35,733 nt of DNA. It comes from Candidatus Omnitrophota bacterium. Its GTDB lineage: Bacteria > Omnitrophota > Gorgyraeia > Gygaellales > Profunditerraquicolaceae. Position 1 is the stretch's first letter. Every line of letters starts with the position of its first letter. Position numbers and translations under genes: made by a program. Under the pieces are notes generated by a model. That model worked only from the letters and a program-made list of their open reading frames with translations. It was not told the DNA's origin and searched no databases. Location: assembly GCA_023818655.1 (NCBI GenBank), contig JAMWCI010000007.1, positions 1-35,733 of the forward strand. The letters run 5' to 3'. Positions 7,919 to 35,733 of the stretch are shown one piece after another.

Positions 7919-7983
7919 GTATTTCTTAATCGGTAATATTAAGATTCTACATTACCACTTATGACTTGCGGATTAATTAACGA

Positions 7984-8745
7984 CTATCCGAATTCTCCCC
8001 TGATATAACCGTCGGTGCGCTGGTCAGAAGGCGCAGTAAATATCTTTTCGGTGATATCGAATTCAATCAACTCCCCTGACAAAAAAAACGCCGTTTTATC
8101 GCCGACGCGGGCAGCCTGCTTTACGTTATTGGTAACCAGAACAATGGTATATTCTCTTTTCAAAACAAACATTGTCTCTTCCACCTTTGCCGTAGAAATG
8201 GGGTCCAGGCCAGAGCAGGGTTCATCAAAGAGAATGACTTCCGGCTTCACCGCCAAAGTCCTGGCTATACAAAGACGCTGTTGCTGCCCGCCGGATAATT
8301 TAAAAGCCGACTCATTAAGCCTGTCTTTTACCTCCTCCCACAGAAAAGCCTTTTTTAAAGACTCTTCTGTAATCTCCTCCAGTTTCTTCTTATCCTTTAT
8401 CCCATGTATCTTTGCTCCGTAAGCAACGTTATCGGCTATGGAAAGCGGCAGGGGAAGCGGCAAGGCAAAGACTGTGCCTACCCTCTTTCTCAAAACTTCC
8501 GCTTCTATCTTCTGTATATCCTCTCCGCCGTAAAAAACGCTTCCGGTCATCTTAAAACCGGGATAGAGTTCATTCAAACGGTTCAATGTGCGTAAAAAAG
8601 TGCTCTTTCCGCTGTTGGCAGGCCCGATAATACTCAAAATCTCATTGGCATAAATCTCCAGATTAATGGCTTTAAGGACATGGAGAGAACCAAACCAGGC
8701 ATTAAGGTTCTTTATGCTGAATTTAATCGGATTGTTTTTTACCAT
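7984..8745 (-). CDS. pstB: Phosphate ABC transporter ATPase PstB2 lacking Q-loop Gln and H-loop His
   Basis: A second ATPase of the phosphate importer, 253 aa, clearly paralogous to PstB1. Walker A GPANSGKS (41-48), signature LSGGQ (150-154) and Walker B ILFDEP (D174, E175) are intact. The Q-loop reads VFALPLPLP, with Ala94 where Gln is expected. The H-loop reads VTNNVKQ, with Asn206 where the switch His is expected. A homodimer should hydrolyse ATP poorly, but its signature can complete the ATP site of PstB1. Its start overlaps the end of pstA by 7 bases. Confidence 0.95.
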   Translation of the reverse strand: MVKNNPIKFSIKNLNAWFGSLHVLKAINLEIYANEILSIIGPANSGKSTFLRTLNRLNELYPGFKMTGSVFYGGEDIQKIEAEVLRKRVGTVFALPLPLPLSIADNVAYGAKIHGIKDKKKLEEITEESLKKAFLWEEVKDRLNESAFKLSGGQQQRLCIARTLAVKPEVILFDEPCSGLDPISTAKVEETMFVLKREYTIVLVTNNVKQAARVGDKTAFFLSGELIEFDITEKIFTAPSDQRTDGYIRGEFG

Positions 8746-17331: not shown

Positions 17332-19259
17332 TTCTTTTTAAAATCCTTTATGTCTTTAACTTCCACTCTTTCGTTTCCCAGGACATCAAGGTAGATAATC
17401 ATAATCTTAGGTCCTGCATTATCTTTGGGAAAGATTACTTTAAAATCGTTTTTGACAATCTCATCATTAAAGAAGGAATAATCCATATCAAAGACCTTGC
17501 CGTCATAATCCTTATCAATCATCACCATGCTTAATGCTTCTTTCATCGGGTCTTCAAATTCCACCGGCTTTTTACTAATTTGCACCGGCTCAAACTTTTT
17601 TATCTCTATTACTAAAACATCGCCAGATTTACCAAACTCTAATTGTCCTTTTTGTTTATCCTGATAATATTCGCACTCTACCTTAGGCGGATAGATAAAA
17701 TCAAAACCCACACTTTCTATGGTCTGGTTGATATTTGCCTTTGATAATGGCTGAAGACTGCGGGTATATCCTTTATCTTGAATCTTCTGAATAATAGAAT
17801 ATGGCACGCGCAGGATATAATAACGGACCTTTCCTTTTGTAACATAATCTTCGTTGAATCTTACTACGCTCATCGGCGCGATAATATACATCTCATCCTT
17901 TAATCCCTCTCCAATAGTTTTATGCAAATCCTCAATAAAATCATAAGTCAAATAGTCCTTTTGAGAAAATACCATTATCGGACGGTTATTTAAAATACCG
18001 TCCATCTTAACGCCTTTAATTTTATTATCTTGCGGCTCTGCGCCAAAGAGTTCTAAAACAAATTTTCGGTAATCCGTCTCCTCCATCTTTTCAATAAATC
18101 CAGAGTCCAAATAAAGCCCGGCATTATACAGGACAAATGGCTTTTGCTTTAATGGCTTTCCTTTATTGCCAATCTCTGCCTTCAAATTCAGCATCCGTTT
18201 TTGAATGGTATAGATTGCTAACTTTGAGGAATCAATCATTATCCATTTTCTGCCTAATTTCTCCGCCACTGCGCCAGTAGTGCCAGAACCGGCAAAACAA
18301 TCTAAAACAATGTCGCCTTCGTTGGAGGAGGCTTTGATAAAATATTCGAGCAACGCTTCTGGTTTCTGTGTTGGAAAATCTATCCTTTCGCCACTTGTGG
18401 CTGCCATAACCGCTACATCAATAACGTCATTGGCCTTTTTCCCTTCAGGATTAAAATATGTTTTTCCATAATAAACTGTGCCATCGGTTCTTACTCTTTT
18501 AACTAATGCGTAACGCTTGCCATCTTTATCAATCTTGTTATACCTCTTCATATCAGCATCGCGATAAGGACTGCGCGGTTGATTCCAAATGTAATTCCCA
18601 CTATTTGAGTAAAAGAAAATTAACTCATGAGCCTGTTGATATTCCCTTTTGGCCTCAGTACCTCTAAAACCTTTATTCCAAATAACATCGTTGACAAAAT
18701 TATTCTCCCCAAATATCTCATCCAGTAAAACCTTTACATAATGACCTTTTCTCCAATCCAAATGCACATAAATACTACCGTCTTCAGTCAATAACTCTTT
18801 TAAGAAAATGAGCCGCTTTCTTAAAAATTCTAAAAATTCAGCACCGGCGATTTTATCTTGATACGCTTTTTCGCCTTTTGAACCCCTAAACTCCTGCTCT
18901 GTGGCAAAGGGTGGATCAATATAGATAAGTTTTACGCCGATTTTTCCATCGGGATTTCTTAAAATCCCTTTTTCTTTTAATTTCAATAAGTGTTTTAACG
19001 CCTGCAAATTCTCGCCAAAAATGAGCATATTGTGCCACTGGTTTTCTTTTACCTCGCCAAACTTTTTAATCGGCTGAAATGGCACGCTTAAGGTATCCGC
19101 TAAGATATCTTCTTTTCTTTCCTTACCATCATAAACCAGTTCATACTCTCTTTCGGTCTCAAAAGGAATGAGAAAGCGGTATTCATCGGGAATGGGCTTA
19201 TCTTCCCTGATTTTTTTAATAATTTCTTCTTTTTGTTGGGAGTTAAGTTTTTTCATCAT
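17328..19259 (-). CDS. mod: Type III DNA methyltransferase Mod subunit (N6-adenine)
   Basis: The modification and site-recognition subunit, 643 aa. Motif IV DPPF (115-118) precedes motif I FAGSGTTG (322-329), the beta-class order typical of type III Mod. The segment between them (about 190-290) should hold the target recognition domain; the recognised sequence cannot be predicted. The start ATG at 19259 has AGAGGA seven bases upstream (a second ATG follows directly). It lies 72 bases after the nucleotidyltransferase-like gene and may share its palindrome-controlled promoter. No simple repeat tract that would make it phase-variable was seen. Confidence 0.94.
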   Translation of the reverse strand: MMKKLNSQQKEEIIKKIREDKPIPDEYRFLIPFETEREYELVYDGKERKEDILADTLSVPFQPIKKFGEVKENQWHNMLIFGENLQALKHLLKLKEKGILRNPDGKIGVKLIYIDPPFATEQEFRGSKGEKAYQDKIAGAEFLEFLRKRLIFLKELLTEDGSIYVHLDWRKGHYVKVLLDEIFGENNFVNDVIWNKGFRGTEAKREYQQAHELIFFYSNSGNYIWNQPRSPYRDADMKRYNKIDKDGKRYALVKRVRTDGTVYYGKTYFNPEGKKANDVIDVAVMAATSGERIDFPTQKPEALLEYFIKASSNEGDIVLDCFAGSGTTGAVAEKLGRKWIMIDSSKLAIYTIQKRMLNLKAEIGNKGKPLKQKPFVLYNAGLYLDSGFIEKMEETDYRKFVLELFGAEPQDNKIKGVKMDGILNNRPIMVFSQKDYLTYDFIEDLHKTIGEGLKDEMYIIAPMSVVRFNEDYVTKGKVRYYILRVPYSIIQKIQDKGYTRSLQPLSKANINQTIESVGFDFIYPPKVECEYYQDKQKGQLEFGKSGDVLVIEIKKFEPVQISKKPVEFEDPMKEALSMVMIDKDYDGKVFDMDYSFFNDEIVKNDFKVIFPKDNAGPKIMIIYLDVLGNERVEVKDIKDFKKK

Positions 19260-19331
19260 AATTTATCCTCTCTTTTGTCTTAATAATTTTTCTGTTGCCT
19301 CAAAACCTCGTTTAACTTATCCAGGGTCTTC

Positions 19332-19802
19332 TTATAGTGTAAGTCCAAGTTCTTCTATCTCATCGTTAAACAATGGTAATTCAGACTTTGACTTCTCAAG
19401 CATTCGCAAAATAGCTCCCCGCCACCTTTTGGGCAAAGAATCAAACAGCCGTTTAATCTCCTGCCTATTGACAATCACAGAGGCGCATATTCCTTGCTGC
19501 AGGTCTTTCATGCTTTTATCTGTCTTTATTCTACGGGATGCAATGATAAGTTTATGAAGGCAAAAATTAGCGGGATTTGGGACACGGATTTTTATGCCAC
19601 CTTCGACAATAGTTATCGGATTATCCAATAACAAACGTACAAACCTTAAAGGGTTTGGGATAAGAAAATCTACATCCTGAGTTCTAAGGGGAAAACTTTT
19701 AGCGCCCAAGTGTTTTTGATATAATTGGAAACACCGATTGCCTATAAGCTCTACTCCCTCATCAAAAAGATTATTGTCGGCAAAAACTTTAAGAATTTGC
19801 AA
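19332..19802 (-). CDS. Nucleotidyltransferase-fold protein, shortened (GSU2403-like)
   Basis: 156 aa, resembling proteins of the GSU2403-type nucleotidyltransferase fold (family match from memory). Seen: LFDEGVELIGNRCFQLYQ, then RTQDVDFLIPNP with the expected Asp pair, then IRVPNPANFCLHKLIIASRR. In relatives I expect some 50 residues between the TQDVD motif and the LLDNPI...RVPNP block; here they nearly abut, which suggests an internal deletion. The start is TTG, seven bases after the previous stop, and a shift of one base at the end would add about 20 codons. It pairs with the small gene upstream and may be the toxin-like half of a two-gene unit (inference), or a decaying gene. Confidence 0.55.
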   Translation of the reverse strand: MQILKVFADNNLFDEGVELIGNRCFQLYQKHLGAKSFPLRTQDVDFLIPNPLRFVRLLLDNPITIVEGGIKIRVPNPANFCLHKLIIASRRIKTDKSMKDLQQGICASVIVNRQEIKRLFDSLPKRWRGAILRMLEKSKSELPLFNDEIEELGLTL

Positions 19803-19809
19803 GATAAGA

Positions 19810-20115
19810 TTAATCGCGTTTTCTGCCTTCGGTTCTATTCAGCATCCGCAAGGCTTCGTTGACTTTTTTAAGTTCAGCTTTTAAGACTTTACGCTCAGAT
19901 AGTTGCTTTATAAGATTCTCTGGTTTATCCTTGCCTAAATATTTGTGCGTTATTTTCTTGCCTACTCTTAATTGGAGATAATAATATCCTCTACCGGATA
20001 TCTTGCGTTCCTTAATGCTTCCTTTAGGAAGTCCTGATAGTTTCTTTTCGATCTTTTGCTTTGCGTCAAGATAATACTCTTTACTCTCTGACAATATTCC
20101 CTTTAATATATTCAT
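19810..20115 (-). CDS. Small basic DUF6788-like protein
   Basis: 101 aa (start ATG 20115; GTG 20118 directly before it is possible), behind a clear AAGGAG. The protein is Lys-rich with a core GSIKERKISGRGYYYLQLRVGKKITHKYLG, then a helical tail KPENLIKQLSERKVLKAELKK. This beta-rich GRxYYYLQ pattern occurs in small uncharacterised proteins next to nucleotidyltransferase-like genes, and similar stretches form the N-terminus of some nucleotidyltransferase-fold proteins (both from memory). The gene is directly under the palindromic promoter at 20128-20169. Function unknown; an antitoxin or DNA-binding autoregulator is possible but unproven. Confidence 0.6.
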   Translation of the reverse strand: MNILKGILSESKEYYLDAKQKIEKKLSGLPKGSIKERKISGRGYYYLQLRVGKKITHKYLGKDKPENLIKQLSERKVLKAELKKVNEALRMLNRTEGRKRD

Positions 20116-24408: not shown

Positions 24409-25440
24409 TTACCGCGTCGACCCCAATGGCCGGCAGGATTCGCGGATTACTAATTCAGTAGGCAGTATTATTTTCTTTACCTGTGTCTCTTTCTTTTCGG
24501 TCATTAACCGATGCAATTCCTTAACACTGTCCTCTGCCATCTTTATCAGAGGTTGCCTTACTGTAGATAGGGCCACCGGCCCGTAGAGGCCGGAGGGATT
24601 ATCGTCAAATCCCACGATGGAAATATCCCGAGGCACATCTTTACCCATCTCTTTGGCAACGGCCATCACTTCCAAGGCCATAGAGTCAGAAGCCACAAAT
24701 ACCGCGGTTGGCGGATCAGACATGCGGAGGAGGCGGTCTGCGGCCAGACGCGCCTGACCACGGGAATAATTCGTATTAAAAATATATCTGGGGTCAATTT
24801 TTATGTTATTCTTCCTTAAGGCGCGCTTGTAACCTTCAAGGCGAAAACTGGCTGCCTGAGTAACTAAGTCGCCCGTAATATGGGCAATTTTTTTATGCCC
24901 CAAGGTAATAAGATAGTTTACTGCTTCTTGTGCTCCTCCGGCATTATCTATAGCGATACAGTTTACGTTAAGGTCATCTATGTAATGATTAATTACCACG
25001 CAAGGAATATTCTTGGAAATGATATCTTCCACCTGATGGCGGTTGCCAATAATATCGGCGAAGATTACACCATCTACTCCACGTAGATTAAGTGAAGAAC
25101 GGACGTCGGTAAGAGAGAGGAGCAAGTCAAGTTTGAAAGCAGCGCAGAGGGTGCCTACGCCGCGGATAAGCTCCAACGCATAAAAAGAATAGAATACGCC
25201 TTCATAGCGCGGGATTACCAAGGCAATTACATTGCTTCTTCCCGTGGCTAACCTCTGCGCAAAGACAGATGGTTCAAACTTCAGTTGCTTTATGGCATCC
25301 AAGACCTTAGCCTTGTTTTTTCCCCGGACGCTGCCTATTTTATTAATTACGCGAGAAACAGTAGCGGTTGATACGCCTGCGAGCTTAGCTACATCCTCTA
25401 TGGAAACACGTTGGGAGGGATTTTTTTTGATACGGGTCAT
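24409..25440 (-). CDS. LacI-family transcriptional repressor
   Basis: A sugar-responsive DNA-binding protein of 343 aa. The N-terminal helix-turn-helix is VSIEDVAKLAGVSTATVSRVIN (two halves near residues 12-33) and is followed by the hinge helix. The periplasmic-binding-protein-like core has the usual GYKRAL and ISIVGFDDNPSG segments. The effector and operator are unknown; the nearby sugar locus makes a carbohydrate signal likely. It follows the coiled-coil gene by 26 bases. Confidence 0.93.
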   Translation of the reverse strand: MTRIKKNPSQRVSIEDVAKLAGVSTATVSRVINKIGSVRGKNKAKVLDAIKQLKFEPSVFAQRLATGRSNVIALVIPRYEGVFYSFYALELIRGVGTLCAAFKLDLLLSLTDVRSSLNLRGVDGVIFADIIGNRHQVEDIISKNIPCVVINHYIDDLNVNCIAIDNAGGAQEAVNYLITLGHKKIAHITGDLVTQAASFRLEGYKRALRKNNIKIDPRYIFNTNYSRGQARLAADRLLRMSDPPTAVFVASDSMALEVMAVAKEMGKDVPRDISIVGFDDNPSGLYGPVALSTVRQPLIKMAEDSVKELHRLMTEKKETQVKKIILPTELVIRESCRPLGSTR

Positions 25441-25466: not shown

Positions 25467-26630
25467 CTATTTTACAATATCGCCTATCTGCAAAGGCGTT
25501 GTTTCATCTATTATATCACAAGCAGAAATATCGTTACGTGTCTGGATAACCTCAAGGTTTGCGATGATTTTATCCTCCCGGTATGCCTGGAGGGTATCAC
25601 CGGCCTTTAATCCCGCTCTTTCTCCTAAATCTATAATAACAAAATTATTCTCTTTGTTTATTGCCACTATCTTGCCTTCGAAGGCAGCAGTCGAAACTGA
25701 CGACACAGAGGAAGACGATGGGGTAGCAACCGGATGCACGACGATAGGCGGCAACTCCACGGCTTCTTTGCCTCCGGCCTGTACCGTATCCGCCTTGCTC
25801 TTTTCCTTACGGATATTTTCAACTGCTTCCTTCAATTCAGAGACATTGCCCACTCTATCGATAAGCATGGTTTCCATTTCGTTTAGCCTACGCTCAAGTT
25901 CCGCCTTCTGTATCTGGAGGTCATGTATCTTTTTATCCAAAGTAACCTTGCGCCCGCTTAAGCTGTTTAACTGTCTAATCAAGGTTGTATTTTCGTTTTT
26001 TAGCTTTTTGTAAGTCTCCTGCAACTTCATCTTATCGCTTCTCTCTCTTACCAGGTCGCGCGCAACGCTGTCCATTAATTTCTGATTATAATCAAGCTGT
26101 CGCATTAAATCTTCCTTCTCCCGTTTATAGTTAGCTATCTCAAGCTGTAAGGCGTTTTTATCCTTCTGCAGCTGTTCATTGTTCAACTGCAACGCATTGA
26201 AATTATTCCGCAGCTCATCCAGCTGCATAGAGAGAACGCTTTTTTCTTTTATGATATTCGCCCAGTATTCGTCAGTAGTCTGAGGTTGCGCTTGCGGCTG
26301 AGGGATAACTACTTGCGCCGAATGCTCTGCTAACTTTTTTGTTAGTTCATCACGTTCATTTTTGATGCGCGCAAAATTCTTATCTAGTTCATCCTTCTGC
26401 TGAAGAACCGTCTCCAACTCTTTCTTGGTTATGGCAAGCTGGTTTTCATAATCGCGGATGCTTGCGTCCAGTTTGTCAATTTTGGCAGTCAAAGTGGCAT
26501 TTTCCTTCTTTAAGGCATCCAGTTCCCGACTGAGCATCTGTTTAGAAACAAGGGTTTGCACAAAAAGAAAAATAAAAACCAAGGATACGCCGCAAACTCC
26601 GATTAACAAAAATTTAATCTTCTGGTCCAT
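25467..26630 (-). CDS. Membrane-anchored coiled-coil protein with C-terminal beta domain
   Basis: 387 aa. One N-terminal membrane helix (about 6-28, FLLIGVCGVSLVFIFLFVQTL) is followed by a long Glu/Lys/Leu coiled coil (about 35-275, with a short Pro/Gln break PQPQAQPQ), then a Ser/Pro linker (TPSSSSVSSVS). The C-terminal domain of about 75 residues (GKIVAINKENNFVIIDLGERAGLKAGDTLQAY...DIVK) resembles the FlgT-C-like/SH3-like domain seen in envelope proteins. It is likely inner-membrane anchored with the rod in the periplasm. No enzyme motif. It is placed between two sugar-type regulators, 10 bases after the ROK gene. Confidence 0.7.
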   Translation of the reverse strand: MDQKIKFLLIGVCGVSLVFIFLFVQTLVSKQMLSRELDALKKENATLTAKIDKLDASIRDYENQLAITKKELETVLQQKDELDKNFARIKNERDELTKKLAEHSAQVVIPQPQAQPQTTDEYWANIIKEKSVLSMQLDELRNNFNALQLNNEQLQKDKNALQLEIANYKREKEDLMRQLDYNQKLMDSVARDLVRERSDKMKLQETYKKLKNENTTLIRQLNSLSGRKVTLDKKIHDLQIQKAELERRLNEMETMLIDRVGNVSELKEAVENIRKEKSKADTVQAGGKEAVELPPIVVHPVATPSSSSVSSVSTAAFEGKIVAINKENNFVIIDLGERAGLKAGDTLQAYREDKIIANLEVIQTRNDISACDIIDETTPLQIGDIVK

Positions 26631-26640
26631 TCACTCTCCT

Positions 26641-27876
26641 CTACCATAATTGAGCGAACATCCTCTGCATCACCAGACTTGCCGCGCCCAGAGCCACGGC
26701 ATTTTCCCGTAATTGAGAATAAAATATCTTAAGACTGTCTGTGCTCTGCCGAAAAGCCCACTGCTTAACAGTTGTGTTTACCGTGCTTAAAAAATCATCG
26801 CCTGCCTCTTCAAAACCGCCTCCAATAATCACCATCTCTGGATTCAGGAGATTCACGAGAAAAGCGATTTTTATACCTAACCTTTTAGCGGCGTTATCCA
26901 GCGCTGAAAGGGCGATAGGGTCTTTGGCGCGTCCGCCAATAAATACGCTCTTTAAGTCTATGTTGTCAATATTGCTGGAGGTTAGTTTAAAAAGATTGGC
27001 TGCATCCTGTTTATTTATAATACAGGCGGCTTTAACATCCTCCACAATACCCAAATCCATTTCCCAGCGCTTAAGAAAACAGGGGTTTCCCGGCGGACAG
27101 CTAAAAAGGTCCTCTTCCTTGAAATTATAAATGGATACCTCTCCGGCATAACCCTGCGCACCGCGATATACCTCTCCATTAATAATAATCCCGCAGCCAA
27201 CCCCGGAAAACATATAGAGCACATTTTTTACCCCACAACCTAATCCCAACCAATGCTCCCCAAAACAGGCGCTGGTGGCATCATTCTCAATAAGCGCCGG
27301 CAGATTAAACTCTTTCTCTATCAGATCTCTAAGCGGCAGATCTACCGAGGCATATGTATAATAATGGTCCATCTTCTGGGGCCAGTGTATGGAACCGGTT
27401 TCTTTATTCACTAATCCGGCGATTCCCACACCTATACCTTTTATATAGCTAGAATATTCTTTGGAACGACGCAATATCTCGCGTACAATCTCCAAGAGAC
27501 ACTCCGAAATCTCCTTTACTGAGGCCTTGGGTCTGACTACCTGCGTCTTGGTTACAATATTACCCTTTAAGTCCACAAGCAATCCCACCATATTCATAAG
27601 ATTTAAACCCACTCCTATTACATAACCAGCCTGCGGATTTAAATCCAAAAGCACCGGCCTTCTGCCGCCTTCAGAAACATCCAGCTCTTTTTCTAAAACA
27701 ATGTTTCTCTTAATGAATTCGTCTATGTAGTTGGAGATGGTGACCACATTTACGCCCATCTCTTTGGAGATATCAGGACGGCTTACCGGACCGCGCCTGC
27801 GCAGGATTTCCAGTATATCAATATTGCGTCTTTCTTTCTCTGTAAGTTCTTCTTTTTGAAAATCTAATTGGCGCAT
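26641..27876 (-). CDS. ROK-family transcriptional regulator (NagC/XylR type) without the usual zinc motif
   Basis: 411 aa. A winged helix-turn-helix (about 18-75, RRRGPVSRPDISKEMGVNVVTISNYIDEFI) is joined to a sugar-kinase-like ROK domain (IGVGLNLMNMVGLLVDLKGNI, ENDATSACFGEHWLG). Where ROK proteins normally carry GH...CxCGxxGCxE, this one reads GYAGEVSIYN then CPPGNPCFLKRWE: the His is Glu and the first Cys is absent, so zinc binding is probably lost or altered. It is the first gene behind the promoter at 27901-27929, which suggests autoregulation and control of the adjacent sugar genes (inference). Confidence 0.88.
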   Translation of the reverse strand: MRQLDFQKEELTEKERRNIDILEILRRRGPVSRPDISKEMGVNVVTISNYIDEFIKRNIVLEKELDVSEGGRRPVLLDLNPQAGYVIGVGLNLMNMVGLLVDLKGNIVTKTQVVRPKASVKEISECLLEIVREILRRSKEYSSYIKGIGVGIAGLVNKETGSIHWPQKMDHYYTYASVDLPLRDLIEKEFNLPALIENDATSACFGEHWLGLGCGVKNVLYMFSGVGCGIIINGEVYRGAQGYAGEVSIYNFKEEDLFSCPPGNPCFLKRWEMDLGIVEDVKAACIINKQDAANLFKLTSSNIDNIDLKSVFIGGRAKDPIALSALDNAAKRLGIKIAFLVNLLNPEMVIIGGGFEEAGDDFLSTVNTTVKQWAFRQSTDSLKIFYSQLRENAVALGAASLVMQRMFAQLW

Positions 27877-27949: not shown

Positions 27950-29572
27950 TTATTCTATATCCACAAGATCAATATTGCGGTCAAAGAAGCCCGCAGGCAA
28001 GGCGACGATAAGATTAATGACCTTTGTGCCTGCCGAGACATAAGATGTGTTGAAATTAGAATCTGAATCCTGAGGCTGAATAGCGCCTGTATCTCCTGAC
28101 CAGAGATAGCGCACTTCTGGCTGCATACATCCTGAAGGTGGCATGCTTGTTTCCGAAGAAATCTGGATAGAATCATTCTTCTTCGCCAGATACGGGGAAA
28201 TCTCTAATGCAGATTTAGTCATATCCATTAATGGATTTTCGTCCTTAACCGAAAGGTCTAAGAATGTTTTTAGGTTATATGCAATAGGTTTTTTATCCTG
28301 TATCTCTCCGAGACGCTGCTGTGTAAGCGCGACAATATCCTGATAATCTGTTCCGGCCAAATTCAAAAGTTTATTGTAGTAATTTCTTGCAGACTCTATA
28401 TCGTCCTGCCATTGCGCAAGCAAGCCCAGTTGATATAAACTTGAAATTACATAGGGGTCTTTTTCGTTTTTATCCGCCAACTTATTGAAATATGTTTTTG
28501 CCAAAACCAAATCCCTTAAGACATAAGCATAGACGATACCTATTTTAAAATCTACTTTATTGGCATGAATGGTCTGGGGATAAAGTTGGAGTAATTGGAG
28601 ATATATATCTTTGGCCTTTGTCAGCTCCTTTGCTTTTTCCAAGTTAAAGGCGCGCAGATACAACAACTCCTCGTCAAACACCTCCCTGCCACATAAATCT
28701 TCTAGCTTCTGAAACACCTTCTCCGCATACAGGCAATCTTTTAAACCGCTATCCTTATACGTAAAAAGCTTGGCTATCTCTATCAGAGAGGGACAAAGTT
28801 TATCCTTGGTTCTCGCCAGATTTTTGGAAATCCTCTCTATATAGATATCAAAAAAACTCTGGGCTAGCTGAAGATTGCCCTGCTGATAAAAATCCTGAGC
28901 GGCTGTCTTTAATTGCTCATCACCAGAAAGCGAAGCCAGTAATTTATCCGCATAAAGGCGATAGAGCTGTTTTGCGCTGGCGTTCTCCCCGTATGCCTGC
29001 AATTTATCTGCTACCTCTTTAATTATCCCGTAATACTTGCCGTTATATCCGAAAACCGCTTTTATCAAAGCTGCCAACGCCTCTTGGGCAAAAGGGTCCT
29101 GTTGGTCATAATGAAACTGCCACAAGAGCAGACTGGAACGTAAAAGATACGGACTGCTCTCTTCTGCCCTCTCGATTACCCTTTGTGCGTTAAACGTGAT
29201 ATCGTCGCGGTAATTATTGCCCTGAGAAAAATACTCATCCCATAATTGATTCTCTTCCAGATATTTTAACTGATTATAGCGCGCCAAGGCGATATAGTAA
29301 TTAGCTGCAGTCAGAATGCAGCTTTCTTTACGGGACAAAGACTTAAGAAAATCCACAAAATCCGAATATCTGTTCTCTTTAAAATAACTCTCCTTTAACT
29401 GTTCAAATAATTTTGCGATATCGGTTTTGCAGGTCGCCTCTAAGATATTCTTTTTCAGGGAAATTAGTTCGGTGGTATCAGCGGCAAAGCTGGCGGTCGC
29501 AGAAACCAATAACGCAGAGAGAATAATTCCCCTGATGACAAAAAATACCGGTCTTTTGCAGGAAAGAATCAT
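27950..29572 (-). CDS. Secreted TPR-type repeat protein with C-terminal beta domain
   Basis: 540 aa with a signal peptide ending ATASFAAD (about residue 31). Residues about 40-440 are helical repeats of TPR type (for example AKDIYLQLLQLYPQTIHANKVDFKIGIVYAY, LGLLAQWQDDIESARNYYNKLLNLAG). The last 80 residues look like a PKD/immunoglobulin-like beta domain (VRYLWSGDTGAIQPQDSDSN...AGTKVINLIVALP). A periplasmic or outer-surface scaffold is likely; no catalytic motif. It overlaps the upstream hydrolase by 4 bases (ATGA), so it belongs to the same operon. Confidence 0.75.
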   Translation of the reverse strand: MILSCKRPVFFVIRGIILSALLVSATASFAADTTELISLKKNILEATCKTDIAKLFEQLKESYFKENRYSDFVDFLKSLSRKESCILTAANYYIALARYNQLKYLEENQLWDEYFSQGNNYRDDITFNAQRVIERAEESSPYLLRSSLLLWQFHYDQQDPFAQEALAALIKAVFGYNGKYYGIIKEVADKLQAYGENASAKQLYRLYADKLLASLSGDEQLKTAAQDFYQQGNLQLAQSFFDIYIERISKNLARTKDKLCPSLIEIAKLFTYKDSGLKDCLYAEKVFQKLEDLCGREVFDEELLYLRAFNLEKAKELTKAKDIYLQLLQLYPQTIHANKVDFKIGIVYAYVLRDLVLAKTYFNKLADKNEKDPYVISSLYQLGLLAQWQDDIESARNYYNKLLNLAGTDYQDIVALTQQRLGEIQDKKPIAYNLKTFLDLSVKDENPLMDMTKSALEISPYLAKKNDSIQISSETSMPPSGCMQPEVRYLWSGDTGAIQPQDSDSNFNTSYVSAGTKVINLIVALPAGFFDRNIDLVDIE

Positions 29573-30867
29573 CTTATCTTTCTCCCTTTCAGTTTTTCAT
29601 TCGGATATCTCCAGAAATCGCGGATTACGTAATACGCCTTGCGCGGGATACGTTTATTAATACCTCCTTCCATATCTTCGGAAAGCGCGACTATCCCGAA
29701 CCACTCCTCATTCATATTTTTATTGGCCGGGGCCTGGATATCAAAATAATAACTGCCATTTGACCAGCCTGCTTCTGTGTCGTGCGTCTTCCATCCTTCG
29801 GCATTGTTCTGGTTATGCTTCCACCATTCATCTGTCCATTCAAACATAGTGCCGCCTATGCAATTGCCGCTGCCTGCTGGATTACCGGCTAAATTCTCGT
29901 AAATCTGCCGCCATTGCGACTTCAGAAAAAATGCCTGTATGTTCTGGTCTTCCTTTTTTAAATAGGCGTCGTAGGCATCCGCCCCAAACTCTGACAGCAG
30001 GATTGGTTTGTCAAAAGTAGCGCGCAATGACCTGAAGAGACTGCCAAAGGTCTTACCCCGGTAAATTATGCAGGCAACCAGATCCACATCCTGACAGAAT
30101 TGATTCGCGTATTCCAAACCGATTAATTCTCCGTTACCCAATGCTACAGGATGATTGAAATCTATTTTGTGAATCTCCTTGGCTATATCATTGACATAAG
30201 AATAGTATATTTTAGCGCGCATAGCTTTTTGTTTTTGAGGGTCAGGCTCCTTATCTATCTCTTCGCTTGACCAAGGGTTAACCGTTCCTATGCAGGAAAA
30301 ATTATTTTCATTCCCCAGAATCCACAGCAGTATCCCCGGTTCATCTTTATAAAGCCTAACCATATCCAGAACCTGTTTTTTTATTTTTTCCTGAAATGCC
30401 GCGTCCGCATAAAATGGACAGGGATACTCCCAAAACCCCAACCAGTCGCCGAGGATTGTGCGGATACCATAAAGATTATAAAAATCCCTAATCACCTGTC
30501 TTACGGCATCAGGGTTATCGCCGACCTGATAAATACGGATGGTATTAATCCCCATATCTTTCATAAGTTTACCGTCAACTAACCAGGGTTTGGCCGGGTC
30601 AGACCACCAATCGTAATCGTGGCTTTGACCTATGGATATAGGATTATAGCAAGCCCCCTTTACTACGTAGGGCTTGTTATTAACCATCAATTGGTAGTTA
30701 TTGTTTTTTAGTTTTCTGATATAAACTTTGCCGGGTTTAATAGCAGCGCCTGATTTTGGCGCTACGCCCAAAATAAGAAAACAAAAGAATAAACCACAGG
30801 CTGCAAGCAAAACAGACCTGCAGCCTGTGATTATTTTGTGATTTCGTTTATTCGTACTTAATCTCAT
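29569..30867 (-). CDS. Secreted clan GH-A glycoside hydrolase
   Basis: 432 aa from ATG 30867 (ATG 30888 is an in-frame alternative; neither has a clear ribosome-binding site and both overlap the previous gene). The signal peptide ends near PKSGAA. A GH2/GH5-like TIM barrel follows: MVNNKPYVVKGACYNP, KDMGINTIRIY, acid/base Glu in ILGNEN (E187) and nucleophile Glu in LLSEFGADAY (E293), then MFEWTDEWWK. It is a retaining hydrolase or transglycosidase; the substrate is unknown, with beta-glucan most plausible. It is paralogous to the catalytic half of the 783-aa protein upstream. A terminator-like hairpin lies in its signal-peptide region. Confidence 0.85.
   Translation of the reverse strand: MRLSTNKRNHKIITGCRSVLLAACGLFFCFLILGVAPKSGAAIKPGKVYIRKLKNNNYQLMVNNKPYVVKGACYNPISIGQSHDYDWWSDPAKPWLVDGKLMKDMGINTIRIYQVGDNPDAVRQVIRDFYNLYGIRTILGDWLGFWEYPCPFYADAAFQEKIKKQVLDMVRLYKDEPGILLWILGNENNFSCIGTVNPWSSEEIDKEPDPQKQKAMRAKIYYSYVNDIAKEIHKIDFNHPVALGNGELIGLEYANQFCQDVDLVACIIYRGKTFGSLFRSLRATFDKPILLSEFGADAYDAYLKKEDQNIQAFFLKSQWRQIYENLAGNPAGSGNCIGGTMFEWTDEWWKHNQNNAEGWKTHDTEAGWSNGSYYFDIQAPANKNMNEEWFGIVALSEDMEGGINKRIPRKAYYVIRDFWRYPNEKLKGRKIR
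30795..30829 (-). terminator. Terminator-like hairpin inside the start of the hydrolase gene
   Basis: Perfect 11-bp arms CACAGGCTGCA (30795-30805) and TGCAGCCTGTG (30819-30829) with a 13-base loop. Reading leftward the stem is followed by a T-rich run (GTTTATTCTTTTGTTTTC). It starts about 19 bases after the stop of the binding-repeat gene. It could partly end transcription, or protect that gene's mRNA 3' end, while some transcripts continue. Confidence 0.6.
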
Positions 30868-32041
30868 CAAGATAGAAAGTTGCGCCATCTGGGTTGTTGT
30901 CGATATTCGCTGCCCAACAGAATCCGCCGATAATATAAGACATATCCTTTCCCTTTAAGTCAATAGTGTATTGTTGCCACTCTTTGGTAAGGATAACCGG
31001 CCCTATAACCGCGCTATCCGAATCGGAGAATTCTCCCATAATGCCACCTGTCTTGAACTCCTCAATGCGCTCCCCGCCTTTTTCTCCTTTTGCCCAAAAG
31101 GTAAGCTTTGTTGCCTTGGATAAATCATACCCGCCGTCAACACTACCCCAGTTGTTTGCGGGATGCTGCCAGTAAATACCTGCCCAACGCGCGCCCTGCG
31201 CAGCCTTGCCATTGTAGATAATCTTAATGCAGGTATCGCCTAGATAAGGGTCTTCCTTGGAGGCATTATCGTATTTTATATCGCCGTAATCGCCCATCCA
31301 CCCGGAAGGAATATAGTGGTTTCTCGGCGAGGAACTGTCAGAATAAACATAAAATGGCATTGCCTCTGCCTTTTTTGTTTCAGGTTTCATATTTGGGTCA
31401 GCTTCAAATTTGATATCATCGAGGTAGAATGTAGCGCCCTGCGGTGCTAAATCAGCGGTGATAACCCAGCAAAACCCTCCGTTTATATAGGAGAGGTCTT
31501 TACCGACTAGATTAATGGTATATTGCTTCCAGGTATCCGTCAATTCAATCGGGCCTAATTCTACGCTTGCAGAATCAGGATATACGCCTTTTATGCCGCC
31601 AACCATTACCTTTTGAAGAACCTCTCCGCCTTTAGCGCCTCTTGCCCAGAAGGTCAGCTTCGTCATACCGGTAAGGTCAAACCCGCCCTTTTTACTGCCC
31701 CAGTTATTGGCGGGATTCTGCCAATAAACACCTGCCCAACCCAGCCCCTGTGATTTTTTGGCGCTATAGGTAAACTGGATACAGGTAGAACCGGAATGCG
31801 GATTATCGGTGGATTGGTCGTTCATTTTTATATCGCCGTAATCGCCCATCCACCCGGAAGGAATATAGTGGTTTTCGCGGTTGGCTTTATCTAAATAAAC
31901 CACAAATTCCTTTTTCTCGGCAACTTTTGATGTTGTTCCCCCCGCAGCCACTGTCGTCGATGCGACAGTAGTAGCCTCTTGGGCAAATGCGCAAGGCGTA
32001 ATTACTGCGAGACTAATTAGAATCACAAGTAACTTTTTCAT
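30848..32041 (-). CDS. Secreted protein with two tandem carbohydrate-binding-like repeats
   Basis: 397 aa from ATG 32041, which has GGGAGGTG just upstream (a GTG at 32047 overlaps that site). The signal peptide is MKKLLVILISLAVITPCAFA, followed by a Thr/Ala-rich linker. Two homologous domains follow, about 45-213 and 229-397. Each runs HYIPSGWMGDYGDIK ... WAG(V/I)YWQ(N/H)PANNWGS ... KLTFWA(R/K)G ... IGPxxLTxxWxQYTI(N/D)L ... GGFCW ... GATFYLD(D/E)IK(F/Y)E. The many exposed Trp and Tyr and the jelly-roll-like pattern suggest glycan binding with no catalytic site. It lies between two hydrolase genes and may act with them or as a binding protein for the cell surface. Confidence 0.8.
   Translation of the reverse strand: MKKLLVILISLAVITPCAFAQEATTVASTTVAAGGTTSKVAEKKEFVVYLDKANRENHYIPSGWMGDYGDIKMNDQSTDNPHSGSTCIQFTYSAKKSQGLGWAGVYWQNPANNWGSKKGGFDLTGMTKLTFWARGAKGGEVLQKVMVGGIKGVYPDSASVELGPIELTDTWKQYTINLVGKDLSYINGGFCWVITADLAPQGATFYLDDIKFEADPNMKPETKKAEAMPFYVYSDSSSPRNHYIPSGWMGDYGDIKYDNASKEDPYLGDTCIKIIYNGKAAQGARWAGIYWQHPANNWGSVDGGYDLSKATKLTFWAKGEKGGERIEEFKTGGIMGEFSDSDSAVIGPVILTKEWQQYTIDLKGKDMSYIIGGFCWAANIDNNPDGATFYLDEIKYE
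31274..31322 (-). repeat. 49-bp direct repeat, copy 2 in the gene
   Basis: Identical over 49 bases to 31826-31874 and offset by 552 bases, a multiple of three. It encodes the HYIPSGWMGDYGDIK segment in the second binding-like domain. Identity including third codon positions points to recent duplication or gene conversion. Confidence 0.9.
31826..31874 (-). repeat. 49-bp direct repeat, copy 1 in the gene
   Basis: Partner of 31274-31322; it encodes the same segment in the first binding-like domain of the secreted protein. Confidence 0.9.
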
Positions 32042-32125
32042 ACACACCTCCCTTTCTCTATTTTTAGAAAGCCGATGTCGATATCTAAATTTTTAATTTC
32101 GCGCACCCTACTTTCCCCTCCTTTT

Positions 32126-34477
32126 TTATTTCTCCCAAAGCTTCTTATACAAAAAATAACTTTTGCGTAACTGCCTTAAAAAAGGACTGAGCCTGCCGTC
32201 GCCCTGACTGCACAACCCAAGCCATTCCTCGTGCATATAGCCATCCGGAAATGGACCGGAAAATAAACCCCGCTTATCATGCACAGACGGCTCATAAGCC
32301 TTCCACCACTCATCTAAGTATTCAAAAACAACGCCACCCAGAGAATTTCCTGAGCCGGACTTAAAAGCCATATTGTTCTCAATATCTTCCCAACACCCCT
32401 GATGATAAGCTGCTTGGAGCTCTTCTGTCTCTTCTTCGCTCTTTCCGTCTGCGTAGGCCGGACAGCCAAACTCAGTGATAAATACCGGTCTATCCGTCTC
32501 TTCTTTTACGCTCTTCCACAGCCGGCCAAAACCGGAATTGCCCCTATAAACATTGGTACCAAAAATATCGATATCAGGGGCGCCCTTGCCGAATTTATCC
32601 AAGTAGAGTGTATCTCCGCTGCATATCGCCACAGGATGCTCTGGGTCAATCTCCTTGATTCTCTTAGCCGCTTCATTGGCAAACCTAAAGAACGCATCCG
32701 GCTCTTTATTTGCATTGCAGGCATAACCGTAAACATTTTCATTACCCAACAACCAGAAAAGGATAAATGGCTCGTCCTTAAACTCCGTAACCATCTTGAC
32801 CACCGAATCGATCATATTCTTCTTCTGCTCTTCATTATTATAATCTGTCCCCGGATTCCAAGGAGCGCCAGAGCCAAGCGCGTACTTACCCAGAAAATCG
32901 CCCATAATTACCCTGATTCCATAAGTATTATATAGGTCGCGCAATAGTTCTTTATTCACAGGATAAGGATGATGATAAACCCTGATGGTATTGACGCCCA
33001 TCTCTTTCATTAATGCGAAATCGCCTGCTGACGGCTCATCTTTGTCCTGTAGATTATTCTTATTTTTATCCCAAAAAGCATCGTAAGGACCGTCAATCTT
33101 GCCGTTTTGATTGAAATCGTCATACATCCAATTAGTCATAGTTTTATCATCCGGGGATTGCCCTGTTTTTGTCGGCGCATAGGTTATCCCCCTGATAATA
33201 TACGGCTTGCCATCCACTATAAGCTGCCAGTCTCCTGTTTTATACTGAACAAGGTGCACCTTGCCTTTACCTAACCTGCGCTTTACGCTCAGAATATTTG
33301 TATCCGGTTTACGCTTCCTTTTTTCAAACTTATCAACCTTCACAAACTTGCCCGGGTTACAGATAACTATATCGTTAGACACATCATTGTCATAACCGTT
33401 GATGATTTTGATATCCGCCCCTTCCAGTTTATAGCCAAACTGCGGATAGCGGCGTAAAAGATAATTAATCCTGTCTATAGCAGCCTGCCCCACATACCAT
33501 GGGGTATGCCAGTAGGTCCAACCGTAACTACCCGGAAAATGCACGACAATAGCGTAGTAACATTTTATGGCATGTTTAATAAGACCGGCTTTTTCCAAGA
33601 TAAACGCAGTATAAAATAATCGCACCCCCTGCGGTTCAGACGCAATAGCCCATTTCAGAAATGCCGTTTCTAAATCCGGCGTCTGCAGATAATCCCAGTG
33701 GGAACAATCAAGACGTTTTTCTTTCATCGCCTTGTGAAATTCGGGGTCCCAACGCAATGAGGTGCTATTAGGGTAAATCCCCTCGCCCACCGCAGCCATC
33801 AACTTCTCCTGATCCTTGATGATATATTTGTAATCCTTAGTGCCGATATTTTGAAATTCGCCGTATTTTTGATAATTGACAAAATCTTCTTTCCCTGCAT
33901 CATAGAGGACAATCTGGGAGGGGGTTTTACTGACTTGGCATTCTTGCTTCTTCTCGTCTACTACGCCGGGGCATTTGCAGGGAACGTTGTCGTCGGCGGT
34001 TATCTTAATAATGCTCTCCCGGCTTGCCTTGGCCACTTTCCAAAACCAGCCGCGGGGGTCCCAAGCCTGGGCATAGCAATAATTGTTTACTACCGTCCGA
34101 AAAGCCTTAAGCGCCTCTTCATTATCCTTTTTTATATCCCGCCAGGCCTCCCCTTGGATAAAGTAAGCGGCGCCTACATCATTCAACGCCTGCACTGCTT
34201 CTATATCCGGCCGATTAACAGGAAATCCCTTCAGAGAGTTTTGTTCTTTATCCGCCTGCTCTTTATAAAGTTGAATAACCTGATCGGTGTATTGTAAGGT
34301 CTCCTCAAACTTACCTTCTCCCTTTGCCATCCACGCCTTGACTATTAATTCTCCGGAAGAGGGCTTGGTCTCTTCAGCAGAAACAAGGCTGGCAGAGTAA
34401 AATCCCGTCATCGCGCAAACAAACACCAAGAACGCCAAAACCCTGCTTTGTGACTGTGCGAGACGATAATATTTCAT
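32126..34477 (-). CDS. Secreted TPR + clan GH-A glycoside hydrolase with EF-hand-like loops
   Basis: 783 aa. After a signal peptide (ends about SLVSAEE, residue 36), the N-terminal 400 residues are helical, partly TPR-like (GAAYFIQGEAWRDIKKDNEEALKAFRTVV; EKAGLIKHAIKCYYAIVVHFPG). The C-terminal half is a GH-A barrel paralogous to the 432-aa hydrolase: LIVDGKPYIIRGITYAP, KEMGVNTIRVYH, acid/base E580 (LLGNENVYG), nucleophile E669 (FITEFGCPAY) and FEYLDEWWK. Two Asp/Asn-rich loops (454-466, DFNQNGKID; 470-481, DKNKNNLQDKDE) look like calcium-binding EF-hand or dockerin loops inserted in the barrel. It overlaps the permease gene by 4 bases, so it is co-transcribed with a sugar importer. Confidence 0.83.
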   Translation of the reverse strand: MKYYRLAQSQSRVLAFLVFVCAMTGFYSASLVSAEETKPSSGELIVKAWMAKGEGKFEETLQYTDQVIQLYKEQADKEQNSLKGFPVNRPDIEAVQALNDVGAAYFIQGEAWRDIKKDNEEALKAFRTVVNNYCYAQAWDPRGWFWKVAKASRESIIKITADDNVPCKCPGVVDEKKQECQVSKTPSQIVLYDAGKEDFVNYQKYGEFQNIGTKDYKYIIKDQEKLMAAVGEGIYPNSTSLRWDPEFHKAMKEKRLDCSHWDYLQTPDLETAFLKWAIASEPQGVRLFYTAFILEKAGLIKHAIKCYYAIVVHFPGSYGWTYWHTPWYVGQAAIDRINYLLRRYPQFGYKLEGADIKIINGYDNDVSNDIVICNPGKFVKVDKFEKRKRKPDTNILSVKRRLGKGKVHLVQYKTGDWQLIVDGKPYIIRGITYAPTKTGQSPDDKTMTNWMYDDFNQNGKIDGPYDAFWDKNKNNLQDKDEPSAGDFALMKEMGVNTIRVYHHPYPVNKELLRDLYNTYGIRVIMGDFLGKYALGSGAPWNPGTDYNNEEQKKNMIDSVVKMVTEFKDEPFILFWLLGNENVYGYACNANKEPDAFFRFANEAAKRIKEIDPEHPVAICSGDTLYLDKFGKGAPDIDIFGTNVYRGNSGFGRLWKSVKEETDRPVFITEFGCPAYADGKSEEETEELQAAYHQGCWEDIENNMAFKSGSGNSLGGVVFEYLDEWWKAYEPSVHDKRGLFSGPFPDGYMHEEWLGLCSQGDGRLSPFLRQLRKSYFLYKKLWEK

Positions 34478-35322
34478 CCCACAAGCGCTCCCTGGGTAAC
34501 CCCCTTTACAATATATTTCTGCATCAAAAGGTAGACTATTATTATCGGCAAGGCCGTAATGGTAAGACCTGCCATTAAAAGCGGATAATTCGTGACAAAC
34601 TCTCCCTGAAAAGTCTGCAGAGCTACCTGCAGAGGCATAAACTTGCGTTCATCAAATATAATCAACGCAAGAATATATTCATTCCAAACATTGAGCGCAT
34701 TAAAAACCACCACCACTGCCAACACCGGTTTTGCCAATGGAAGAGCCACATGCCACCAGATACCCAGCTTGGAACATCCATCGATACGCGCGGCATCCTC
34801 AAGCTCTTTTGGCATCTTGTCAAAGAATGTCTTCAAAAGAAAGATGCTCGTGGATAATCCTACGTTTATCATACACAAAATATAACCTATGGGCGTATTC
34901 CTCAGGTGCAGCTTGTTTAAAAGAACATAGAGCGCCACAAAGCTTCCCGGGATAGGAATCATCATCGCCGCCATAAACATAATAAACATAATATTTCTTC
35001 CGGGAAATCTTAAGCGCGAGAAGGCATAGGCAGCAAGCGAAGAAATAACAATAATACCCAATACTACTGAAACGGTATAGATAATGCTGTTCAGAAAATT
35101 TCCGCCAAAGCCTCCCTCTTTCCAAGCCTGCACATAATTCTGCCAGTGGAATTTATCAGGCCAGAGGGATAAATCTTTAAATATGGTATCCTGGGTTTTC
35201 AGACTTGAAGAGACCATCCATAATAATGGAAAAAGACAAGTAGCGGCAATTGAAAGAAGCAAAAGATGTATCAACAGATTGATAGCGACACTTTTAGTTT
35301 TATAGTAGATGGGCGACCTCAT
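34474..35322 (-). CDS. Sugar ABC transporter permease, MalG type
   Basis: An inner-membrane subunit of a carbohydrate importer (CUT1 family), 282 aa, about six membrane helices. The ATPase-coupling EAA loop is ELEDAARIDGCSKLGIWWHVALPLAKP. The start at 35322 has AAAGAG upstream. It is 9 bases after the partner permease and overlaps the hydrolase by 4. The binding protein and ATPase are not in the window. Confidence 0.94.
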   Translation of the reverse strand: MRSPIYYKTKSVAINLLIHLLLLSIAATCLFPLLWMVSSSLKTQDTIFKDLSLWPDKFHWQNYVQAWKEGGFGGNFLNSIIYTVSVVLGIIVISSLAAYAFSRLRFPGRNIMFIMFMAAMMIPIPGSFVALYVLLNKLHLRNTPIGYILCMINVGLSTSIFLLKTFFDKMPKELEDAARIDGCSKLGIWWHVALPLAKPVLAVVVVFNALNVWNEYILALIIFDERKFMPLQVALQTFQGEFVTNYPLLMAGLTITALPIIIVYLLMQKYIVKGVTQGALVG

Positions 35323-35331
35323 ATCTCTTTA

Positions 35332-35733
35332 TCAGAACCTTGCCTTTTTGGAAAGTCGGTATTGCACAAAAGAAATCGCCATTAATATTGCTCCGAAATT
35401 AATCCCCAAGGCGCAGGCATACCCAAACCTGGAAGAACCGCGCATCTCTGCCAATATGCGCAATACGGGCATGGAAGTATGCCCGGCGAACTCTCCTCCA
35501 ACAAGCCCTATAATCAGGACAAATACCTGCATCGTTCCCAGAACTGTCAAGATAGCCACTAACACCATTACAGGTATCATTAGAGGCACGGTAATCTCTT
35601 TAAATTGCCGCCAGGCATTTGCGCCGTCTACCCTCGCCGCTTCATAAAGCTCCCGCGGTATAGTTTGCAATCCTGCCAGGAATATCAAAAAACCCCAGCC
35701 AAACCCCTTCCAGCAGTGCACAATAGCTACGGT
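35332..35733 (-). CDS. Sugar ABC transporter permease, MalF type, 5' end outside window
   Basis: The last 133 residues of the partner permease, open to the right edge. The coupling loop ELYEAARVDGANAWRQFKEITVPLMIP is typical of MalF-type CUT1 permeases and is followed by two or three membrane helices. It forms the channel with the MalG-type protein encoded 9 bases downstream. Confidence 0.92.
   Translation of the reverse strand, partial: TVAIVHCWKGFGWGFLIFLAGLQTIPRELYEAARVDGANAWRQFKEITVPLMIPVMVLVAILTVLGTMQVFVLIIGLVGGEFAGHTSMPVLRILAEMRGSSRFGYACALGINFGAILMAISFVQYRLSKKARF

Follow-up and report, generated by a model that had tools for sequence, protein, structure and literature searches.

A conserved Omnitrophota operon joins a CUT1-type importer to two paralogous hydrolases and a tandem lectin-like protein, and may serve the uptake of a beta-glucan

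What does a bacterium do with an operon in which the genes for a sugar importer run on into a hydrolase fused to a TPR domain, a tandem lectin-like protein, a second hydrolase and a further TPR-like protein? This question is raised by one end of contig JAMWCI010000007.1 (C24) from a Candidatus Omnitrophota assembly (1.57 Mb in 147 contigs), which was taken whole as the window of our analysis (35,733 nucleotides). Members of this phylum are uncultured and mostly very small, and some are predators or symbionts (PMC10066038; this and the other papers named below are cited from excerpts). We conclude that these genes form a real operon with a near-constant order across Omnitrophota, and that its parts are of known kinds: a CUT1 importer, glycoside hydrolases (GHs) of clan GH-A, a lectin resembling carbohydrate-binding modules (CBMs), and TPR. 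The function that we place first, at roughly even chances, is that the operon traps, trims and imports a beta-glucan or a closely related beta-linked hexan.

The list of open reading frames (ORFs) confirms the genes at the place and on the strand given in a preliminary description made from the sequence alone. On the minus strand, the two permease genes are followed by those for the fusion protein TPRGH (783 aa), the lectin LEC (399 aa), the second hydrolase GHb (439 aa) and the TPR-like protein TPR2 (540 aa). Past TPR2, on the same strand, lie genes for a ROK regulator, a coiled-coil protein, a LacI regulator and the ribonucleotide reductase NrdJ (the last recognized by eye). The features, with residue numbers referring to the proteins and structural models taken from AlphaFold2, are as follows.

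35332..35733, minus strand: MalF-like CUT1 permease (BPD_transp_1, E 5.6e-14); 5' part lost at the contig end
34474..35322, minus strand: MalG-like CUT1 permease (BPD_transp_1, E 9e-19)
32126..34477, minus strand: TPRGH, fusion of a TPR domain and a clan GH-A hydrolase (Glyco_hydro_2_C, E 1.2e-11; GH158 in PDB, E 3.2e-12)
33998..34357, minus strand: TPR domain of TPRGH, residues 41-160 (helices in the model; separate-gene homologue in locus L117)
33023..33118, minus strand: D/N-rich insert of TPRGH, residues 454-485 (read by eye)
32129..33268, minus strand: GH barrel of TPRGH, residues 404-783 (alignment to GH158)
32738-32740, minus strand: E580 of TPRGH, acid/base (aligned to the GH158 GNE motif)
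32471-32473, minus strand: E669 of TPRGH, nucleophile (aligned to the GH158 TE[FW]G motif)
30848..32047, minus strand: LEC, tandem CBM-like protein (model; choice_anch_J match in NCBIfam)
31391..31915, minus strand: LEC repeat 1, residues 45-219 (model, fold comparison, alignment of the halves)
30851..31357, minus strand: LEC repeat 2, residues 231-399 (model, alignment of the halves)
29569..30888, minus strand: GHb, second hydrolase (hhalign to TPRGH; profile to GH158)
30307-30309, minus strand: E194 of GHb, acid/base (aligned to GH158)
29989-29991, minus strand: E300 of GHb, nucleophile (aligned to GH158)
27950..29572, minus strand: TPR2, TPR-like with a C-terminal beta-domain (TPR_12, E 1.2e-5, below cut-off; beta-domain by eye)
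26641..27876, minus strand: ROK-family (NagC/Mlc-like) regulator, conserved neighbour (ROK, E 7.7e-40; weak N-terminal HTH_11, E 1.4e-4)
25467..26630, minus strand: coiled-coil protein, conserved neighbour (Pfam scan; locus map)
24409..25440, minus strand: LacI-family regulator, conserved neighbour (LacI, E 1.1e-15; Peripla_BP_3, E 5.2e-34)

The genes had been described as coupled by overlaps. This holds for MalG/TPRGH (4 b), LEC/GHb (41 b with the listed start) and GHb/TPR2 (4 b), but not for MalF-MalG and TPRGH-LEC, which are separated by 9 and 78 b, respectively. LEC itself more likely begins at a methionine 6 b inside its listed ORF, at 32041.

Evidence that the arrangement exceeds chance comes from 80 related loci, kept of 130 found in one scan of species genomes that yielded close relatives only; 75 are labelled Omnitrophota or Omnitrophica, one Velamenicoccus and four ‘bacterium’. 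Their ORFs were called, clustered and mapped, with many loci truncated at one end by the contig. The order PilZ-SBP-MalF-MalG-TPRGH-LEC-GHb-TPR2-ROK-coil-LacI-NrdJ, in which SBP is the solute-binding protein, recurs with few changes. When profiles were run on six-frame translations and only loci with room were counted, LEC followed TPRGH in 71 of 72, GHb in 59 of 60 and TPR2 in 47 of 57. The sole miss for both LEC and GHb is locus L098, which carries an insertion and in which LEC comes after a second TPRGH. Median gaps over the loci are -1 (MalG-TPRGH), 85 (TPRGH-LEC), -8 (LEC-GHb) and -4 b (GHb-TPR2). Homologues placed in unrelated settings, which the preliminary description had named as grounds for abandoning its proposal, were therefore not what the co-occurrence search found.

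Beyond these loci, the TPRGH protein found matches in 49 of 58 relatives (the window's own genome counted), including 21 of the 24 of high quality. LEC likewise matched in 49 of 58, weakly in one of them (G055). Across the phylum, a TPRGH profile gave matches in 255 of 384 genomes and in 168 of the 249 high-quality ones among them, where a match in a given genome may be a paralogue. Two genomes from the window's own family, G024 and G025, both more than 90% complete, are without TPRGH. The operon is therefore widespread, yet not universal.

Both hydrolases appear from their sequences to be active enzymes. As had been proposed, they share a barrel (hhalign E 2.3e-78, 38% identity) and a FEW/Y-x-DEWWK motif, which reads FEYLDEWWK at residues 718-726 of TPRGH and FEWTDEWWK at 349-357 of GHb. 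The D and E of DEWWK are conserved in 81/81 TPRGH and 60/60 GHb alignment rows that cover the site, the other 2 of 83 and 4 of 64 being gapped at this point. The same counts apply to the catalytic glutamate pair, in which the acid/base residue is preceded by asparagine (N579-E580 with E669 in TPRGH, N193-E194 with E300 in GHb). A loss of catalysis, the other outcome that had been named as counting against the proposal, is rejected on these figures.

The nearest enzymes of known structure are the GH158 endo-beta(1,3)-glucanases. By sequence, the best PDB match of TPRGH is 9oro, or GH158(Pro), at the E value listed above. A TPRGH profile matches BuGH158 (6pal, E 5.6e-15), and a GHb profile also matches GH158 (E 7.8e-11). 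BuGH158 is a beta(1,3)-glucanase that loses its activity when either catalytic residue, E137 or E220, is mutated, and it carries a C-terminal Ig-like domain (PMC7157763). In the TPRGH model (pLDDT 84), counting strands from 428-433, strand 4 (572-577) precedes E580 and strand 7 (665-670) holds E669, which is the clan GH-A arrangement shared with GH158. The barrel superimposes on GH158 enzyme 9p26 with a Z score of 25.9 (VIA-align; root-mean-square deviation (rmsd) 3.0 Å over 271 aligned residues), and the 50 fold matches listed span Z 24.8-26.7.

Unlike GH158, however, the window enzymes carry the FE[WY]xDEWWK motif, are only 17-27% identical in structural alignments and lack the Ig-like domain of BuGH158. 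The TPRGH model stops at its final barrel helix (772-782), and the end of GHb lies within 10 residues of that of the aligned barrel. TPRGH differs further in its N-terminal TPR domain and its D/N-rich insert, a gap in the GHb alignment. Three insert residues (D454, N458, D462) are invariant in 45 rows, and by eye the insert resembles calcium loops of the EF-hand or dockerin type. The top Pfam match of TPRGH is the GH2 barrel (Glyco_hydro_2_C), followed by Glyco_hydro_72 (E 8.8e-7, over cut-off); for GHb, all Pfam matches fall below cut-off and Glyco_hydro_72 comes first. Of GH2 proper, the family of beta-glucuronidases and beta-galactosidases, the window proteins show only the barrel model in Pfam, and the GH2 equivalog and subfamily models of NCBIfam reach no more than 33 bits, far below a cut-off of 2000.

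A tree of 37 barrels, limited by its midpoint root and its long branches, places GHb in one clade and TPRGH in another, the latter joined by two extras (the GH of a giant frame in G010 and that of a fusion in G292, both discussed below). These separate clades suggest that the duplication predates the sampled lineages. TPR and GH parts are two adjacent genes in G057, and G056 has a GH without TPR near a single-domain LEC; TPR-GH fusion and LEC duplication are therefore variable inside the phylum.

The TPR character of the window's own TPRGH is weak (TPR_6, E 0.03). Homologues of this domain that are encoded separately score over cut-off (TPR_6, E 2e-7, in L117; TPR_8, E 2.8e-7, in L115), and the model is helical over the region, so that the TPR-hydrolase fusion reported earlier is borne out. 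In TPR2 every TPR match remains below its Pfam cut-off. Short proteins built from a pair of matches to the TPR domain of TPRGH are also encoded off the operon contigs (L113, 3417-4163; L115, 5910-6746; L116, 7174-8019).

LEC had been listed as a binding protein. We reject it as the importer's solute-binding protein, since its model (pLDDT 87) consists of two beta-sandwiches and a separate SBP_bac_8 protein is encoded upstream; by model and fold, LEC is a tandem beta-sandwich lectin. Its halves are identical at 99 of 170 residues. The first domain resembles CBM11 (6r31; Z 13.8, rmsd 3.2 Å over 149 residues) and CBM30 (1wmx; Z 13.7, 3.0 Å over 152), placing it with CBM11/CBM30/CBM4-type modules. 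It differs from CBM11 and CBM30 in its low identity (14-16%) and free-standing tandem form, and it has no match in PDB by sequence at E 1 and no CBM family in Pfam. The choice-of-anchor J model of NCBIfam (choice_anch_J) does match over its cut-off (33.5 bits against 30). A second full LEC and, near it, a protein whose front resembles the TPR-plus-barrel proteins described below are found in G029 (L124, 706-3501 and 8572-9744).

How strongly LEC is conserved can be judged from 16 sets of protein sequences, the window's included, among which median pairwise identity is 80.3% for NrdJ, 78.5% for MalG, 77.8% for LEC, 68.5% for TPRGH and 66.9% for GHb; it is 73.5% for SBP (14 sets) and 44.1% for TPR2 (13 sets). 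Export signals of TPRGH and LEC were assigned by eye. Close to their start, 34/52 SBP, 17/64 GHb, 8/52 TPR2, 7/83 TPRGH and 4/72 LEC proteins match a loose lipobox pattern.

The importer is of the CUT1 (MalEFGK2) type. In relatives, an SBP_bac_1/8 protein (one member examined with Pfam) and two BPD_transp_1 permeases stand together in the order SBP-MalF-MalG, and the nearest NCBIfam model for the window's MalF-like permease is MalF, with a score far under cut-off. Unlike other such systems, this one shares its operon with a TPR-GH, a lectin and a GH. The binding protein and ATPase had been expected beyond the contig end, which proved right for the former only: the SBP gene lies upstream, past the point where the window's contig ends, in 52 of 80 loci, whereas the ATPase does not adjoin and is encoded elsewhere. 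Of 21 genomes, 20 encode a MalK-type ATPase (PF17912), among them the window's own (contig C99); it is single-copy in 19, G036 being the exception. All four of the sites fetched are near accD-like and sugar-kinase-like genes, and three of them near a transaldolase-like gene (by eye).

Queried with MalG, 24 of 26 genomes gave a match, and in 21 it was the only one. The second match in G037 and G043 is a fragment, G036 has two distant matches, and the single match in G011 (31%) belongs not to the operon but to a different contig, where a GH94 gene is close by. On these counts the operon importer looks like the sole CUT1-type importer in most of the genomes tested.

Neighbouring sugar genes offer clues to what is imported. 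A GH94 cluster (one member, in L095, identified by Pfam) adjoins the operon in 12 loci and a GH116 cluster in 5. The GH94 of V. archaeovorus LiM (L087) matches cellobiose phosphorylase (E 3.8e-148) ahead of chitobiose phosphorylase (E 4e-130) in PDB. A symporter cluster of the major facilitator superfamily (the member scanned is MFS_2, and GPH-like below cut-off) is likewise present in 12 loci. It accompanies the full ATP-binding cassette (ABC) set in four and MalG in L079, while the contig ends there in five; in L096, and in L093 up to the contig end after GH94, the symporter and GH94 stand in place of the ABC importer, as expected for a small sugar product. Taken together, GH94, GH116, the symporter swap and the likeness to cellobiose phosphorylase suggest that the imported sugar is a disaccharide or short oligosaccharide of beta-linked glucose. 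ABC transporters for di- and oligosaccharides have been reported from metagenome-assembled genomes of Omnitrophota, along with beta-glucosidases and phosphorolytic enzymes, so that sugar uptake and phosphorolysis in this phylum are already published in general terms (PMC8542988).

A diverged GH94-like gene (~880 aa) was also seen in the window's own genome (L111, contig C70, 1519-4152), in L113 (5532-7868) and in L118 (10189-12828). It accounts for most of the PF17167 matches, which were obtained in 25 of 26 genomes, and a flippase-like gene (by eye) adjoins it in L111 and L113.

Taken at face value, these features would describe a machine in which LEC holds a glucan chain outside the inner membrane while TPRGH and GHb cut it by a retaining clan GH-A mechanism with two glutamates, perhaps with one hydrolase for long chains and the other for short ones. 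The TPR parts would hold the proteins together. SBP, MalF and MalG would import the short products, powered by the MalK-type ATPase encoded elsewhere; the ROK and LacI regulators next door would adjust expression, and in some lineages a GH94 phosphorylase would split the imported disaccharide. The data show directly the gene content and order, the catalytic residues, the predicted folds of TPRGH and LEC and the mostly single-copy importer and ATPase; we infer which polymer is used, in which compartment (display at the cell surface included), how the two hydrolases share the work, the scaffolding by TPR and the regulators' role. The scheme agrees with the preliminary description, which had suggested cutting and import, in that a CUT1 importer does accompany two paralogous, active-looking hydrolases, a glycan-binding-like protein and TPR proteins.

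Several observations weigh against uptake of a beta-glucan. The TPRGH barrel superimposes on a GH2 glucuronidase (1bhg; Z 26.7, rmsd 2.9 Å, 283 aligned) in a tie with GH158, the top Foldseek match of LEC is the tandem CBM22 of a xylanase (4xup, E 2.8e-11), and the best NCBIfam match of the one SBP scanned is of a galacto-oligosaccharide type, far below cut-off. No outer-membrane entry route was recognized in most loci. The TPRGH profile found no match in 129 of 384 phylum genomes, and among the 24 relatives of high quality TPRGH is missing from 3, including two members of the window's own family. Finally, a lectin conserved about as well as MalG and ribonucleotide reductase is odd for a food-catching protein, and a conserved upstream PilZ gene is unusual in a plain uptake operon. 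PilZ lies within three genes upstream of SBP in 41 of 50 loci; in 32 it is adjacent, always on the same strand, at a median gap of 117.5 b. Searched with a loose pattern, the clustered PilZ proteins carry RxxxR in 58/58 and [DN]xSxxG in 57/58, and one member of each of four clusters is confirmed by Pfam.

The PilZ gene and the strong conservation of LEC both favour a different explanation, that the operon remodels or recycles the cell's own beta-glucan, either a coat or a periplasmic polymer. A glycosyltransferase of family 2 (GT2) would make the chain, TPRGH, GHb and a third barrel GH, termed GHc, would trim it, LEC would hold it and the importer would recover fragments, all under cyclic di-GMP control through PilZ. 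Three genomes provide the most direct link to synthesis. One frame each in L109 (G038), L156 (G224) and L157 (G247) combines a TPRGH-type TPR, a cellulose-synthase-like GT2, GHc and a LEC domain, with a GH also preceding the TPR in L109 and L157 (L156 is cut off there). The best PDB match of the L109 GT2 is BcsA (E 2e-29). In the window's own genome, contig C89 carries a GHc-LEC gene behind the tail of a GT2 gene that has lost its start at the edge of the contig; compared with L109, two parts are 63% and 43% identical and the GT2 part 56%. A fusion of GHc with the operon's GH occurs in G292, preceded by genes that by eye resemble PilZ, SBP, MalF and MalG, and TPR-plus-barrel proteins (barrel by eye) occur in 8 operon loci. 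Bcs is an exopolysaccharide synthase system with cyclic di-GMP control. The loci resemble such systems in PilZ, TPR, TPR-barrel proteins, GH and, in a few genomes, the GT2 fusion, but the operon has an importer and no synthase.

Searches for a partner that would make the glucan argue the other way. With E. coli controls positive, MdoG was found in 0 of 40 genomes and Cellulose_synt in only 2 of 58, so that an OpgG/MdoG-type periplasmic glucan is rejected and a cellulose synthase partner throughout was not found. The L109 GT2 query matched 3 of 58 relatives, its own source among them, and a GT2-GHc query 47 of 286 genomes, many by GT2 or GHc alone, compared with 49 of 58 for TPRGH. The possibility of own-glycan processing, allowed for from the start, thus gains from the three GT2 fusions and loses from the lack of known glucan synthases in most genomes searched. 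The synthase link is real but rare. For this reason we rank trapping and uptake first and consider recycling of the cell's own glucan a serious though rather unlikely alternative. Two features of the window's own genome stand beside this. In L112 (C89, 1-5315) the GT2 match starts only at base 302, and the sequence ahead of it may have arisen in assembly. The GHc-LEC gene there is accompanied by a gene whose GH127 match is weak and below cut-off. On C27 (L106, 5854-11208), a 1,785-aa frame with radical SAM, GH and the start of a TPR runs off the contig end and is possibly the front of a giant gene.

Giant frames suggest yet another function, in which giant proteins cut host or prey surface glycans at contact and the operon imports the products. 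In 7 of 58 genomes (G010, G020, G030, G033, G038, G042, G047), TPRGH matches fall inside frames 2,000 aa or longer. The longest have 57,756 and 70,450 aa, and the fetched frames of G020, G030, G038, G042 and G047 fill their contigs, which makes the lengths of these five minimum values. The operon is present in the predator V. archaeovorus LiM, whose giant ORF has been proposed to degrade the surface polysaccharide of target cells (PMC10066038). However, both TPRGH-profile matches in the LiM genome at E 1e-5 lie within the operon; its giant ORF is accordingly rejected as a GH carrier (no match outside the operon in G058 at this threshold). The other complete chromosome searched, G059, has a 45,379-aa frame with one weak match (E 4.9e-9). 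Most giant GHs examined form clades of their own, only that of G010 falling, on a long branch, with TPRGH, and the operon is far commoner than giant frames with these modules. We regard an attack on host or prey as quite improbable. Lower still we would put the proposal that the GHs are mainly transglycosylases that rebuild a glucan, which appears very doubtful. Glyco_hydro_72, a glucanosyltransferase family, ranks second for TPRGH and first, though below cut-off, for GHb, and Gel4 and Gas2 are among the fold matches, but the best PDB sequence matches are hydrolases, and fold and glutamate pair do not separate the two activities.

Trapping and uptake of a beta-glucan has a known counterpart in the beta(1,3)-glucan utilization loci of Bacteroides, which likewise pair beta-glucanases with glycan-binding proteins. 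Those loci differ in that no SusC/SusD-type gene was recognized here among the window proteins and the cluster examples scanned with Pfam, and in that their surface binding proteins are reported to show particularly low similarity (PMC7157763), whereas the Omnitrophota lectin is strongly conserved and not variable. A broader idea is unlikely, though somewhat less so than the attack on host or prey: Omnitrophota might make a conserved extracellular beta-glucan that the operon trims, holds and recycles, while synthase fusions and the phylum's giant proteins would have taken up the same kinds of TPR, GH and lectin modules.

Elsewhere in the window, two tandem PstB-like ATPases form an apparent pst operon (7163-8745). 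The one at 7163-7918 reads LSLEQ where its neighbour has the ABC signature LSGGQ (by eye), and may be regulatory or inactive for that reason. Adjacent genes resembling a type III restriction enzyme and a DNA methyltransferase (14776-19259, by eye) extend into the part of the window where GC content is lowest (16001-20000, ~0.38).

Our literature search, which covered work other than preprints, showed no description of this operon in the titles and abstract openings of the matches listed. Neither the fixed, phylum-wide combination nor the sharing of its modules with giant frames and synthase fusions appears in the excerpts of PMC10066038, PMC12057145, PMC8542988 and PMC7157763. Few domains have been annotated in the giant proteins of Omnitrophota (PMC10066038), and the operon provides a sequence link into them. 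The diet of these bacteria is poorly known, and an importer operon with a conserved lectin offers a testable handle on that diet or on the cell coat.

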